A stretch of 44,513 nt of DNA from an uncultured bacterium (GTDB lineage Bacteria; Armatimonadota; HRBIN16): contig CALJAP010000014.1 in assembly GCA_938027655.1 (NCBI GenBank), positions 1-44,513 of the forward strand, read 5' to 3'. The position numbers and the translations under genes are program-made. Position 1 is the first letter of the stretch, and every line of letters begins with the position of its first letter. The notes under the pieces are model-generated. The model was not told the DNA's origin, searched no databases, and saw only the letters and a program-made list of their open reading frames with translations. Positions 27,423 to 39,198 of the stretch are shown in pieces.

Positions 27423-29891
27423 ATGTCTGCCCTGCGCAACGGTTTCTTTATCGTTCAGTTGCAAAAGCACGTGCTGAGCGACCTGCGGTGCGACCCGACG
27501 GGCAAAGCACGCACCAGCCAGCCTTTCTGCATCACCATCATCCCCGAAGGCTGGGAATGGACACAACAAACCCACGTGCGCCAGAGGGAGAGCGAAGCCA
27601 CCATCGAACCCCTGCAGGTGTGGCATCCTGAGCCGATAGCCATCGAAAGCGGCAACGAGGTTACCTTCCCGGAAAGGCTGGAAGAAGGGCATACGCTGGC
27701 GCAAACCTTCCGTATCGCACCCGGGCAGCAGTTTCGCACCGTTTCGGTGCATCTACCCACCTGGCATACCTCCGATTCGGGTTGCACGCTGAGCCTGTTT
27801 CGGGGCGATACACTCATCGCCTCGCGCCGCCTGCAGAACGTGCCTGACAACTCATGGCAAACGCTTGTGTTGGGTGAACCACAAAGCGAAGGCGAGTACA
27901 CAGTGCAGATCTCCGATGCCCACGGCTCCATCGGCTGGTGGAGCAGCCAGAAGGACGTGTGGGCGGGTGGAACCGCGCTGGTGGACGGCGAGGCGGTGTC
28001 TCGCGACCGCGCTCTGCGTGTGGACGTGCGCCGAGCCATCGGCGAGGGACGTTTACGCTACCGCCTGCAAAGAGACGCGATGCAGATAGAGGCGCAGTTG
28101 CGCTCCCAATCCGCTCCCCCTGCTCCCTCGCGCTGGACATGGAACACCACATGGACGAAGGCGGGCTACGATTGCACCCCGCGCGCGGGCGTGGTCTTCA
28201 GCCGCTTCTTCACCGACAACCAGCGCTACATGCCCGTACAGCAGCTGAAACGACGTGACCATGCCGGGCTATCCTTTGATGGGGCGCGCTGGATTGAGAT
28301 GGAAGGCACTCGCGACGCCGACCTGCGCATCGAAGGCGAAGGCTTGCACCTGCACTGGGAGATGGACGAGAAGCAGATGCACCTGCGTCTGCACATCCCC
28401 TATAAGCAGGAAGGCAGCGGATGGATATGTCGATGGAGCGTACGCGTGCTGCCCCGAACCGATTCCGTGCCCGCCGACTTTCCGCGCTTCACCTGCCCGC
28501 AACGCAGGCTGGAAGAGGACATCAACCGCTTCTGGTGGGAGCGAGCGTTCACCTACCCAGCGCCTGCGGGTCCTGCTGCATGGTTCGAATGGATGGCAAC
28601 CATGCGATGCTGGTACGAGGGCGCACAACGGCTCGGTGAAATGGAGCAGTTGCGTACTTATCCCATCACGCCCGAAGGATACGTACACACATGGGGCGCA
28701 ATGCAAGGCTGGCCCTTCCCGCCCTCGCCGCCGTACGATACACGTCATTTCGACACCAACGCCCGCTTCATTCTTGCCTGCTGGCGGTTCTACCTGTGGA
28801 CGGGCGATAGGCAATTCCTGAAAAGCCAGGCAGACCGCCTGCGCCGCGCGATGGCATATCAGTTGGAAACGCTGAAGGGGCAGGAAGGGCTGATTATCAC
28901 CGCCAGCAAGGATGTGAACGGCAGGCACAAAGGCGTGGGCAATAACTACTGGGATATTCTGCCGTTCGGACACCTGGACGCCTACGCCAACGCGGTGTAC
29001 TACGCCAGCCTCGAAGCCATGCAGGGGGTTGACACAGTGTTGCGTCAGCGACCCTTGACCGACTACAATGCCCTGCGCCAGAAGGTGCATCGCCGCTACG
29101 ACGAAGTCTTTTGGGACGAGAAGGCAGGGCGGTACATCGGTTGCGTGGACATCGACGGCGTGCGCCACGACTACGGTTTCACTTTCGTCAATTTGGAGGC
29201 GTTGTACTACGGATTAGGCGACGGGCAGAAGGCGAAACGCATTTACCGCTGGATGGAGAGGGAACCGACCTCCACCGGCAAATCCGACACCTACAGCAAG
29301 TGGATTTTCGCGCCGCGCGCCAACACCACCCACAACCCGATGTGGGGCGAGAACGCTCCCCCTGAGGAGCGCAACAGCCCGGTTCCCCCGTGGTGGCATT
29401 TCGGTTGGCTGGGCACACCCTACGGCGACCAGTGTCAGGACGGCGGGGCAATCCTGTATACCTCCTACTTCGACCTGATGGTGCGCCTGCGCTTCTTTGG
29501 TATCGAGAACGCCTGGAAACGGTTCGCCGAGATACTCTCGCGCTACCGGATGCCCGACCGCCTGTGCGGGGGACCTCCTCTCTATCGCGGTGAGATACCG
29601 CAACAGGAAAACCCCGGACAGGTAGGTGTCGACCTGCCCTTCCCCGAAAGCGGATTGGTTCCCTGCTTCCTGCTATTCGGCGTGCTGGGCGTAGAGGCGA
29701 CGCCAGAGGGCTTGCGCATCCAGCCTAAACTGCCGAAGGAGATACCCGCTCTGGGGGTGGACGGGGTGAGCTACCGGGGCAACCGCCTGCGAATTACCGC
29801 TACCCCGCATGAGGTGGTGGTAGAGGGCGAGCGCATCCGCAAAAGACTATCCCCAACGGGTGGCGTCATTTCGGGTAAAATAGACGCATGA
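27423..29891 (+). CDS. Six-hairpin glycosidase-like protein
   Basis: The 822-residue product begins at ATG 27423 without a signal peptide. The first ~380 residues are beta-rich, with a sugar-binding-like fold (ISDAHGSIGWWSSQKDVWAGGT). Residues about 395-720 form an (alpha/alpha)6 barrel: DINRFWWERAFTYPAPAGPAAWFEWMATMRCWYEG, RFYLWTGDRQFLKSQADRLR, GVGNNYWDILPFGHLDAYANAVYYASLEAM and WFGWLGTPYGDQCQDGG. A C-terminal beta domain, EATPEGLRIQPKLPKEIPALG, is like those of GH65/GH78/GH94 relatives. It is probably a cytoplasmic glycoside hydrolase or phosphorylase releasing the sugar used by neighbouring enzymes. The exact GH family and catalytic acids are not assigned. The stop overlaps the HxlR gene. 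Confidence 0.72.
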   Translation: MSALRNGFFIVQLQKHVLSDLRCDPTGKARTSQPFCITIIPEGWEWTQQTHVRQRESEATIEPLQVWHPEPIAIESGNEVTFPERLEEGHTLAQTFRIAPGQQFRTVSVHLPTWHTSDSGCTLSLFRGDTLIASRRLQNVPDNSWQTLVLGEPQSEGEYTVQISDAHGSIGWWSSQKDVWAGGTALVDGEAVSRDRALRVDVRRAIGEGRLRYRLQRDAMQIEAQLRSQSAPPAPSRWTWNTTWTKAGYDCTPRAGVVFSRFFTDNQRYMPVQQLKRRDHAGLSFDGARWIEMEGTRDADLRIEGEGLHLHWEMDEKQMHLRLHIPYKQEGSGWICRWSVRVLPRTDSVPADFPRFTCPQRRLEEDINRFWWERAFTYPAPAGPAAWFEWMATMRCWYEGAQRLGEMEQLRTYPITPEGYVHTWGAMQGWPFPPSPPYDTRHFDTNARFILACWRFYLWTGDRQFLKSQADRLRRAMAYQLETLKGQEGLIITASKDVNGRHKGVGNNYWDILPFGHLDAYANAVYYASLEAMQGVDTVLRQRPLTDYNALRQKVHRRYDEVFWDEKAGRYIGCVDIDGVRHDYGFTFVNLEALYYGLGDGQKAKRIYRWMEREPTSTGKSDTYSKWIFAPRANTTHNPMWGENAPPEERNSPVPPWWHFGWLGTPYGDQCQDGGAILYTSYFDLMVRLRFFGIENAWKRFAEILSRYRMPDRLCGGPPLYRGEIPQQENPGQVGVDLPFPESGLVPCFLLFGVLGVEATPEGLRIQPKLPKEIPALGVDGVSYRGNRLRITATPHEVVVEGERIRKRLSPTGGVISGKIDA

Positions 29892-33602: not shown

Positions 33603-34271
33603 CTATTCCTTTGCGCCTGCTTCCAGTAGTAGCTTCTCCACCTCTTTACGGTTGTACTTGCGCGCCAGTGCGAGAGGCGATTCGCCGCCGTTGGTCTTCA
33701 CATCTACTCTGGCGCCGCGTTGTAGCATCATTTTCACCACTTCTGCGTTACCAAACATCGCAGCGAGGGTCAGCGGCGTTTCCCCGTAGTTGTTGGTGGC
33801 GTTGACATCAGCCCCCCGCTCTATCAAGATTTTCGCCACCTCTACCTCGTTGTCTGACAATGCATACATCAGTGGCGTCCTGCCATTGACATCTCTGGCG
33901 TTGATGTCCGCCCCCTTCTCCAAGAGGGCAAGGAGCACCGCACTCTGTGCTCGCTGGCGGGGGTTGGCGGCAACCATTAAGGGGGTGACCCCGAACTTAT
34001 CAGCAGCGTTGACGTCTGCCCCTCGTTCTATCAACAGCTGCACCATTTCTAACGAACCTCTCATTGACGCCCACAGCAACGCTGTCTTCCCATGCTGGTC
34101 TCGGGCGTTCACGTCGACGCCCCTGTCCAGTAGTGAGCGCACTGCCTCTACATCCCCGCGGATTGCCGCATCCACCAAGCTTGCCTGCGAACGAGAGCGC
34201 ACGTACCAGCCAAGGGAGATACCTACCAGAACCAGTATCACGATCAACGCCAACGCTGTTGTGCGTTTCAT
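33603..34271 (-). CDS. Ankyrin-repeat protein with N-terminal membrane anchor
   Basis: The 222-residue protein starts with a membrane or signal helix, MKRTTALALIVILVLVGISL, then about five ankyrin repeats: DQHGKTALLWASMRGSLEMVQLLIERGADVNA, DKFGVTPLMVAANPRQRAQSAVLLALLEKGADINA, DVNGRTPLMYALSDNEVEVAKILIERGADVNA, NNYGETPLTLAAMFGNAEVVKMMLQRGARVDV and a last NGGESPLALARKYNRKEVEKLLLEAG. Repeats are regular, so the scaffold is intact. It is probably anchored to the membrane with the repeats outside the cytoplasm, and binds an unknown partner. No enzymatic domain is present. Confidence 0.92.
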   Translation of the reverse strand: MKRTTALALIVILVLVGISLGWYVRSRSQASLVDAAIRGDVEAVRSLLDRGVDVNARDQHGKTALLWASMRGSLEMVQLLIERGADVNAADKFGVTPLMVAANPRQRAQSAVLLALLEKGADINARDVNGRTPLMYALSDNEVEVAKILIERGADVNATNNYGETPLTLAAMFGNAEVVKMMLQRGARVDVKTNGGESPLALARKYNRKEVEKLLLEAGAKE

Positions 34272-36582: not shown

Positions 36583-39198
36583 ATGAACATCTCTCGCTCT
36601 CACCCGATAGTGGCGGTGATTCTGGCGGCGGGAAGGGGCACGCGTATGGGTGCTACTCACTTGCCGAAGGTGTGTTTCCCCATCGCCGGCACGCCCGCTA
36701 TTGCCCGCGCCGTGGGGTCGTACATGCGCTGCGGGATTCACACCCATTGCGTCGTCGTCGGACAGGGCGCGGAAGCCATTATGGGAGTGCTGAAGGACCT
36801 GCCGGGGCACCGCCTCTATGCTCACCAGCCCGAACCGCGCGGCACAGGTCATGCTACCCGCGTGGCGGTAGACCTCTTGCAATCGCTGGGCTATGAAGGC
36901 GACGTGCTGGTGGTTGCAGGCGACAAGGTGATTGAGGAGGCGTTTCTCGCTCGCTTGATAGACACCTTCTACTCCACCCGAAGTGACCTCGCTTTTGCGG
37001 TGGGCAGCGTGGAGCACTTTCCCACCTCCGGGCGCGTGGTGCGCGATGCGACGGGCAAGGTGTGCGCTATTGTGGAGGTGTTTGACCTGGTGCGGGCACA
37101 GGTTCTGCACGCCCTGCGACAGATGGCGCATCCCGCCCCCTTGCCCGCGCAGGAAGCCAAACGCCTTGTTGTCAGAACCTTTCCGCAGGAGAAAAAGGCG
37201 GCGCGTGCGCTGGGCGACCTGTGGCAAGCGATAGAGCGCGGCGAGCCAGTGTCCGCGGAAATGGTTCCCCCCCTTGATGGCATTCGCGTGGGTGACGCCG
37301 TGCTTCCCCTCTCGCAAGTGGAGCAGGCGCAGGAGGCGAACCTCTCGGTCTACCTGTTCCGCGCGCCCGTCCTGTACGATGCGCTGGCAAAACTGAGCGC
37401 CGACAACGCGCAGGGGGAGGAATACCTTACCGACATTGTTGCGCTCCTGTCGCAGCGTGGAGCGGTTATTCACACCGTGCCTGTTGCTTACCCCGAAGAG
37501 GCGATGGCGTTCAACACCCCGGAGGAACTGCAGGCAATTGAGGAATATCTCCTCTCCCGTCGCCGGATACAAGTGCAGCAGCTGCCACAGGGTATGTATA
37601 CGGTCAGTCAATGGCTGCGCGCCATCGAGGCACGCGATGACGCCTTCATGAACCACCTACGTAACACCTACGGCGGCGATGAGGCGATTGTGGAACGCAA
37701 GCGCGATCGCTTGCTGTCGCTACTCGCCCTGCATCTGCAGCGGTTTGGCGACCAGCAGGTGGTTATCGCGCGTGCGCCCGGCAGGGTGAATATCATGGGC
37801 AGGCACATCGACCACCAGGGCGGACACGTCAACATGATTGCCATCGACCGTGATGTGCACGCGGTGGTCGGGTTGCGTGCAGATAGGCAGGTGCATCTGC
37901 AAAACCTTCAGTCGCGGGCGTTCCCACCCCGCGAGTTTACACTGGATGACCTGTTGCCGGGCTATCAGCCGGGCGCGTGGGTGGAGTTCGTGAACAGTGC
38001 GCCGATACTGGAGGCGGCTGCCTCCGCACGGGGCGAATGGTCACAATACGTGAAAGCCGCCTGCGCCCGCCTGCAAGCGCATTTCGCCGACTACGTGCTG
38101 CCGGGGTTTAATCTGACCGCCGATGGCAACGTGCCCATCGGGGCAGGACTGAGCTCCTCGTCAGCGGTAGTGGTGGCGACGATGGAGGCGTTACTGCATC
38201 TGAACCGCTTCGAACTCCCGCCGGAGCAGTTTGTGGACCTGTGCGGCGAGGCAGAGTGGTACGTGGGCACGCGCGGCGGGGCAGGCGATCACGCGGCGAT
38301 GAAGTTCGCTCGACGTGACGCGGTGGTGAACATGAGCTTCTTCCCCTTCCGCGTGGTGGGCGACGTGCCTTTCCCGCAGGGCTATCGGTTTCTGGTGTGC
38401 CATTCGCATCAGCAGGCGAAAAAGACCGCCGGCGCGCGCGACCAGTTTAATCACCGGGTAGCGTGCTATCATCTGGGCAGAGAGTGGCTCAAACACACCT
38501 TTCCGCACCTTGCCCCGCGCATCGAGCATCTGCGCGACGTGAACACCGAGCGTCTGGGCATCCCGCTCGCTGAGCTGTACCGCCTGCTTGCGCACCTGCC
38601 CGAGGTGGTGGAGCGCCAGCATCTGCTGGAACGACTGCCTGCCGAACGGATAATGTCCTACCTCAGCACGCACGACGAGAAGCTGAACCGCTACCCGATA
38701 CGTCCGGTGGTGGTGTTTGGGCTGGCAGAGTGCGAGCGCAGCCGCCGAACCGCAACGCTGTTACGAGAGGGACACATCGATACTTTCGGACGATGGATGA
38801 ACCGTTCGCACGACGGCGACCGCGTTGCTCGCTGGAACACCGATGGTGATGATTTCCAGCCCTTTGCGGTGGATTACTCCGATAGCGCATTGCAACACCT
38901 CATCGAGCAGGCAGAGCACAATCTCCCCGACGCCGACCTTGTGTGGCAGCCGGGCGCATACGCCTGCAGCACACCGGAAATCGACTGGATGGTGGATGTG
39001 GCGTTGCGCGTGCCCGGTGTGCTGGGGGCGCAGATACTGGGGGCAGGACTGGGCGGCTGTATCCTGGTGTTGGTGCGCGAAGACGCCTGCGACGCCGTGC
39101 AGCGCGCCCTGACCGACCACTACTATGCCCCGCGCAAGCTGGAGCCGGAGATGTTCGTGTGTTCACCAGTAGCAGGAAGCGGGATTGTGACGGTGTGA
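36583..39198 (+). CDS. Fused GlmU-like nucleotidyltransferase/galactokinase-like GHMP kinase
   Basis: The 871-residue protein has two enzymes in one chain. Residues 1-320 are a sugar-1-phosphate nucleotidyltransferase: VILAAGRGTRMGATHLPKVC (12-31), HQPEPRGTGHATRVA (81-95), VVAGDKVIEE, and NAQGEEYLTDIVALL, very like the GlmU uridyltransferase. A ~70-residue linker follows. Residues 395-865 are a GHMP kinase of galactokinase type: APGRVNIMGRHIDHQGGHVN (398-417), VPIGAGLSSSSAVVV (ATP loop, 517-531), GGAGDHAAMK and ILGAGLGGCILVLV. GalK has GEHTD where this has GRHID, so the sugar-binding Glu is Arg here. The inferred role is a salvage enzyme that phosphorylates a free sugar at C1 and makes the NDP-sugar, like FKP (fucose). 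The start lies 207 bp from the divergent URO-D gene. Confidence 0.88.
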   Translation: MNISRSHPIVAVILAAGRGTRMGATHLPKVCFPIAGTPAIARAVGSYMRCGIHTHCVVVGQGAEAIMGVLKDLPGHRLYAHQPEPRGTGHATRVAVDLLQSLGYEGDVLVVAGDKVIEEAFLARLIDTFYSTRSDLAFAVGSVEHFPTSGRVVRDATGKVCAIVEVFDLVRAQVLHALRQMAHPAPLPAQEAKRLVVRTFPQEKKAARALGDLWQAIERGEPVSAEMVPPLDGIRVGDAVLPLSQVEQAQEANLSVYLFRAPVLYDALAKLSADNAQGEEYLTDIVALLSQRGAVIHTVPVAYPEEAMAFNTPEELQAIEEYLLSRRRIQVQQLPQGMYTVSQWLRAIEARDDAFMNHLRNTYGGDEAIVERKRDRLLSLLALHLQRFGDQQVVIARAPGRVNIMGRHIDHQGGHVNMIAIDRDVHAVVGLRADRQVHLQNLQSRAFPPREFTLDDLLPGYQPGAWVEFVNSAPILEAAASARGEWSQYVKAACARLQAHFADYVLPGFNLTADGNVPIGAGLSSSSAVVVATMEALLHLNRFELPPEQFVDLCGEAEWYVGTRGGAGDHAAMKFARRDAVVNMSFFPFRVVGDVPFPQGYRFLVCHSHQQAKKTAGARDQFNHRVACYHLGREWLKHTFPHLAPRIEHLRDVNTERLGIPLAELYRLLAHLPEVVERQHLLERLPAERIMSYLSTHDEKLNRYPIRPVVVFGLAECERSRRTATLLREGHIDTFGRWMNRSHDGDRVARWNTDGDDFQPFAVDYSDSALQHLIEQAEHNLPDADLVWQPGAYACSTPEIDWMVDVALRVPGVLGAQILGAGLGGCILVLVREDACDAVQRALTDHYYAPRKLEPEMFVCSPVAGSGIVTV

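Follow-up and report, generated by a model that had tools for sequence, protein, structure and literature searches.

A predicted single-chain UDP-sugar salvage enzyme pairing a GlmU-type nucleotidyltransferase with a GalNAc-kinase-type sugar kinase in Armatimonadota and other bacteria

Two described enzymes come closest to the protein considered here. FKP of Bacteroides fragilis, an L-fucokinase/GDP-fucose pyrophosphorylase, carries an N-terminal pyrophosphorylase and a C-terminal GHMP kinase joined by a helical linker of ~70 residues, and takes a free sugar to an NDP-sugar in two steps (PMC11982464). DrGKUP, the zebrafish glucuronokinase/UDP-GlcA pyrophosphorylase, has the same order as our protein, with a GHMP kinase and a bacterial-type nucleotidyltransferase producing a UDP-sugar for salvage; for bacteria, the DrGKUP study reports stand-alone nucleotidyltransferases of this group only (PMC3938481). 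We analyzed a gene in a 44,513-nucleotide stretch of DNA (the window) from an uncultured member of the Armatimonadota, whose predicted product shares the overall plan of FKP and DrGKUP but differs in pairing a GlmU-type with a GalNAc-kinase-type domain. Whereas the nucleotidyltransferase half of FKP has a beta-helix and makes GDP-fucose, the GlmU-type half found here has none, and the kinase belongs to the GalNAc-kinase/galactokinase branch. DrGKUP is eukaryotic, is shorter (619 residues versus 871) and has a kinase described as belonging to the glucuronokinase branch. A literature search that covered few subscription papers returned neither an account of a GlmU-type/GalNAc-kinase-type fusion nor a characterized orthologue of this architecture.

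The first-pass annotation had placed pyrophosphorylase and kinase motifs, in that order, in one 871-residue frame, and had likened the order to that of FKP. The frame, Pfam matches, motifs and structural model bear this out: the frame runs from ATG to stop with no internal stops, and encodes a GlmU-type nucleotidyltransferase, a helical linker and a galactokinase-type GHMP kinase. The features are as follows.

36583-39198, + strand: predicted bifunctional protein, nucleotidyltransferase plus GHMP sugar-1-kinase (intact ORF, purifying selection, AF2 pLDDT 91)
36583-37557, + strand: GlmU-type nucleotidyltransferase domain without the acetyltransferase (left-handed helix) half, residues ~1-325 (Pfam, PDB sequence matches, Foldseek)
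36622-36648, + strand: LAAGRGTRM nucleotidyltransferase signature, residues 14-22 (alignment)
37084-37323, + strand: mostly helical insertion of ~80 residues, residues 168-247 (alignment, model of the nucleotidyltransferase alone)
37405-37434, + strand: NAQGEEYLTD motif, GlmU-like sugar site, residues 275-284 (sequence motif, alignment)
37561-37752, + strand: helical linker, residues ~327-390 (homologue alignment, AlphaFold model)
37753-39195, + strand: GHMP sugar kinase domain, residues ~391-871 (Pfam, Foldseek)
37774-37824, + strand: APGRVNIMGRHIDHQGG, sugar-site signature, residues 398-414, with the R407 codon at 37801-37803 where Glu is usual (sequence motif)
38134-38166, + strand: PIGAGLSSSSA, GHMP phosphate loop, residues 518-528 (invariant columns P518, G522, S525-S527)
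38242-38289, + strand: CGEAEWYVGTRGGAGD, residues 554-569, with Mg-binding Glu558 and catalytic Asp569, a family hallmark (sequence motif, alignment)
39025-39060, + strand: GAQILGAGLGGC, GHMP C-terminal motif, residues 815-826, with Q817 covarying with R407 (alignment)

Eight of the nine other genomes of the genus hold full-length orthologues (77-95% identity), and within the genus dN/dS is 0.08-0.13 for the nucleotidyltransferase and kinase halves alike. Both halves are thus under purifying selection and the gene is real; together with relatives in several phyla, these data rule out a chance ORF or an assembly chimera. An AlphaFold model of the whole protein has a mean pLDDT of 91 and a pTM of 0.65, a value that leaves the placement of the halves relative to each other uncertain. 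In the window's genus the gene lies between a URO-D-like gene (upstream, opposite strand) and uvrA (downstream, convergent), an arrangement that makes it solitary rather than part of an operon, and no glycan genes adjoin it there. Elsewhere in the window, 33603-34271 encodes, on the opposite strand, a small protein consisting almost throughout of ankyrin repeats, and 27423-29891 encodes an 822-residue candidate glycoside hydrolase, GH116/GH65-like by weak Pfam matches.

The nucleotidyltransferase half resembles GlmU most closely in both sequence and fold. Pfam places NTP_transf_3 at residues 11-164 (4e-13, above the gathering cut-off), the best matches in a PDB sequence search are GlmU, and a model of this half alone (pLDDT 92) retrieved GlmU in all of its 36 best Foldseek matches (E 6e-24 to 2e-16), ahead of other pyrophosphorylases. 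Besides LAAGRGTRM, in which L14, G17, G19, R21 and M22 are invariant in the alignment of nucleotidyltransferase halves, we found the GD motif (114), NAQGEEYLTD and the Asn of AFNTPEEL; by alignment the catalytic residues are complete (K29, D114, E165, N253 and the NAQGE motif). An earlier reading of NAQG-E-YLTDI as a GlmU-type mark therefore agrees with both motif and fold. Unlike GlmU, the protein has no acetyltransferase domain: Pfam detected no Hexapep match (left-handed beta-helix acetyltransferase) in the 871 residues, and the kinase sits in that place instead. The helical insertion at residues 168-247 is missing both from GlmU and from the fused relatives L018 and L020, and the NCBIfam GlmU equivalog scores 134-137 bits, far below its cut-off of 450.

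The second half has the N and C domains, phosphate loop, catalytic Asp and Mg-binding Glu of the GHMP superfamily. Three Pfam families match above their gathering cut-offs, GalKase_gal_bdg (residues 384-430, 6e-17), GHMP_kinases_N (489-573, 3e-16) and GHMP_kinases_C (777-848, 2e-12), and the catalytic residues are again complete by alignment (R401, H408, D410, the phosphate loop, E558 and D569). The roles given to single residues in both halves lean in part on general family knowledge. They are otherwise based on FKP, with its catalytic Asp762 and Arg592 (PMC11982464). Human GalNAc kinase (GALK2; PDB 2a2c/2a2d) is the nearest solved kinase, 2a2c being the top match both in sequence and in Foldseek with the whole model, and the two share the HID motif and the GGxxD loop. 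Phe622 aligns with the Phe of GalNAc kinase, at a position where GALK1 has Tyr (Tyr236). Identity to GALK2 is only ~23% over the fold alignment, however, and GALK2 is not fused and lacks the Glu-to-Arg change in the sugar motif. The best NCBIfam model is the galactokinase TIGR00131, at 149-152 bits against a cut-off of 226.65. Because the protein scores below every curated equivalog cut-off for GlmU and for galactokinase, specificity cannot be transferred from either family.

Taken together, these data make it very likely that the protein combines a sugar-1-kinase and a uridylyltransferase in one chain. The first-pass annotation had proposed a single-chain salvage enzyme for UDP- or other NDP-sugars, and Pfam, PDB matches, model and Foldseek all point to a UDP-sugar product. 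In the mechanism we propose, the C-terminal kinase would use ATP to phosphorylate a free sugar at its anomeric carbon, and the N-terminal domain would then join the sugar-1-phosphate with UTP, yielding a UDP-sugar and pyrophosphate. The sugar would most likely be of the N-acetylhexosamine type: GalNAc, GlcNAc or a variant altered at C6, for example a HexNAc-uronic acid. Many relatives have a linked 4-epimerase, which would interconvert the UDP-sugar ahead of its use in surface polysaccharide. We put the probability of this reading, two-step salvage of a HexNAc-type sugar via its 1-phosphate to a UDP-sugar for surface glycans, at roughly 0.6. It is the most likely account of both activities, of UTP as donor and of sugar identity, given the architecture, catalytic residues, conservation, folds and neighbors. 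The genome also encodes its own GlmU and a galactokinase-like protein elsewhere, so the fusion appears to supply an extra function, and the idea that it replaces either canonical enzyme, GlmU or GalK, is rejected.

The gene neighborhoods of relatives bear on the substrate. In six Armatimonadota genomes, from five genera in families other than the window's, a WbpP/TviC-like epimerase adjoins the gene on the same strand at a distance of 12-79 bases (L034, L103, L102, L130, L134 and L140), and in a different genus (L037) it lies one gene away. It is the sole strong copy (>450 bits) in each of these genomes. Among characterized proteins of solved structure it is closest to WbpP and WbgU, which epimerize UDP-N-acetylhexosamines and their uronates, and we read it as a WbpP/TviC-like UDP-HexNAc(A) 4-epimerase. 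These loci are not fully independent, as all belong to one clade of Armatimonadota, and the window's genome has no close counterpart of the epimerase (best 35% identity). Glycosyltransferases and a Wza-type export protein also occur near the gene in relatives. In L030 the genes directly upstream encode WecB (above its cut-off), an SDR resembling CapI and a TviB-like dehydrogenase, and in L112 a NagA-type amidohydrolase follows a stand-alone kinase. A Gfo/Idh oxidoreductase beside the gene in L037 and L123 was considered as a WbpB-like clue and dropped, the PDB search being unspecific. The first-pass annotation had suggested an N-acetylhexosamine or galactose; with GalNAc kinase and GlmU as the nearest solved relatives and the epimerase as a neighbor, the substrate probably falls in the N-acetylhexosamine class, and galactose is the less favored of the two.

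The most striking departure from galactokinases is GRHID in place of GEHTD. Within a clade that extends over several phyla, 41 of 44 sequences have Arg407 here, and K574 and Q817 track it across the family alignment; Ser or Met stands instead in L123, L140 and L112, with Ser in L140 and in L123, a fused member. In galactokinases the equivalent position probably faces the sugar C6, which makes a C6 carboxylate attractive: Glu presumably serves the C6 hydroxyl, and Arg407 could pair with the carboxylate of a hexuronic or N-acetylhexosaminuronic acid, giving a UDP-uronate. The GAHIDHQGG motif of plant galacturonokinase is a lead. This uronate reading is possible but tentative; it is a sub-case of the HexNAc reading if the sugar is N-acetylated and a true rival if it is plain GalA or GlcA. 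It draws on the conservation of Arg407 and its two tracking residues, and on UDP-uronate-type enzymes encoded nearby in relatives, namely the CapI-like and TviB-like enzymes of L030, a UDP-glucuronate-decarboxylase-like SDR in L139 and the TviC-like epimerase of several Armatimonadota. However, TviC-like epimerases accept non-uronic UDP-HexNAc as well, L140 retains its epimerase neighbor despite Ser407, and the proximity of Arg407 to C6 would follow by analogy from galactokinase structures. The specific route, in which a free N-acetylhexosaminuronic or hexuronic acid bound via Arg407 becomes UDP-HexNAcA or UDP-uronate in one bacterial chain, is somewhat more doubtful still. We know of no described one-chain bacterial equivalent, and our literature search, with few subscription papers covered, returned no description of one. 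The zebrafish enzyme offers a precedent for the architecture acting on a uronate (PMC3938481).

Ordinary galactose salvage, in which a single chain would act as kinase and UDP-galactose pyrophosphorylase and so bypass GalT, is unlikely. The first-pass annotation had argued against galactose from the Glu-to-Arg change; the change is real and the conclusion plausible, but the change does not carry it unaided. The genome's own galactokinase-like protein (L149, contig C12) has GNHTD, so Glu is not universal even among galactokinase-like proteins, and with Ser in L123 and L140 the substitution alone does not exclude galactose. The Pfam galactose-binding signature and TIGR00131, best model although under its cut-off, also speak for galactose. 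Against it are the galactokinase-like gene already present and the nearest relatives of the two halves, GalNAc kinase and GlmU.

Less probable again is salvage of a 6-deoxy sugar or pentose (fucose, arabinose or a QuiNAc-like sugar) by an FKP analogue, although the Glu of the sugar motif is lost in such kinases too. The domain order is that of FKP (PMC11982464), but the matches include no fucokinase/GDP-fucose-pyrophosphorylase Pfam domain and the nucleotidyltransferase is GlmU-type, not GDP-fucose type.

If the HexNAc reading is correct, the fusion would do for UDP-(amino)sugars what FKP and zebrafish GKUP do for their products, and would do so in several mostly uncultured phyla, whose members would recycle free amino or acidic sugars straight into cell-surface precursors. 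It would also provide a ready single enzyme for UDP-sugar production, with R407 as a clear test of specificity.

Searching for the architecture across Armatimonadota and beyond recovered full-length fused relatives (38-51% identity), all with the nucleotidyltransferase ahead of the kinase, in other Armatimonadota, Sumerlaeota, KSB1, Chloroflexota, Lentisphaerota, Kiritimatiellota and a Clostridia MAG. Stand-alone kinase homologues (Chthonomonas relatives, Omnitrophota, Poribacteria, Caldithrix and others) begin at ~residue 336 and retain the linker, which thus belongs to the kinase unit. In a tree of kinase halves the Arg407 sequences, fused or stand-alone, cluster together (SH-aLRT 92), and sequences beyond this group carry Val, Thr, Met or Pro at the position; the fused count on this tree is one lower than scored, as the N-terminus of L138 reads as lacking the nucleotidyltransferase. 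Stand-alone members nest inside the Arg407 group, indicating that the fusion was lost or gained several times. In L140, nucleotidyltransferase, kinase and epimerase are three adjacent genes, the split falling at the linker, where only a few bases separate the TAA of the first gene from a plausible ATG for the second; this arrangement speaks for the HexNAc salvage reading. In L041 a stand-alone kinase begins 8 bases after the end of a GalU-like nucleotidyltransferase gene.

Other features were seen around stand-alone kinases. A large protein with no Pfam match, up to 2,200-2,550 residues (L143:1636-9150), adjoins them or lies one gene off at six loci from Omnitrophota, Armatimonadota and a Desantisbacteria MAG (L143, L038, L113, L141, L142 and L047), a strong link. 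A DUF4922 gene (L049:4210-5139) lies immediately upstream of another stand-alone kinase and could provide the nucleotide-transfer step there. In distantly related stand-alone kinases of Armatimonadota and Actinomycetota (L053:7914-9707, L054 and L118), NPHCDHQGA replaces the sugar motif, but the CGEAEWYVGTRGG loop is retained.
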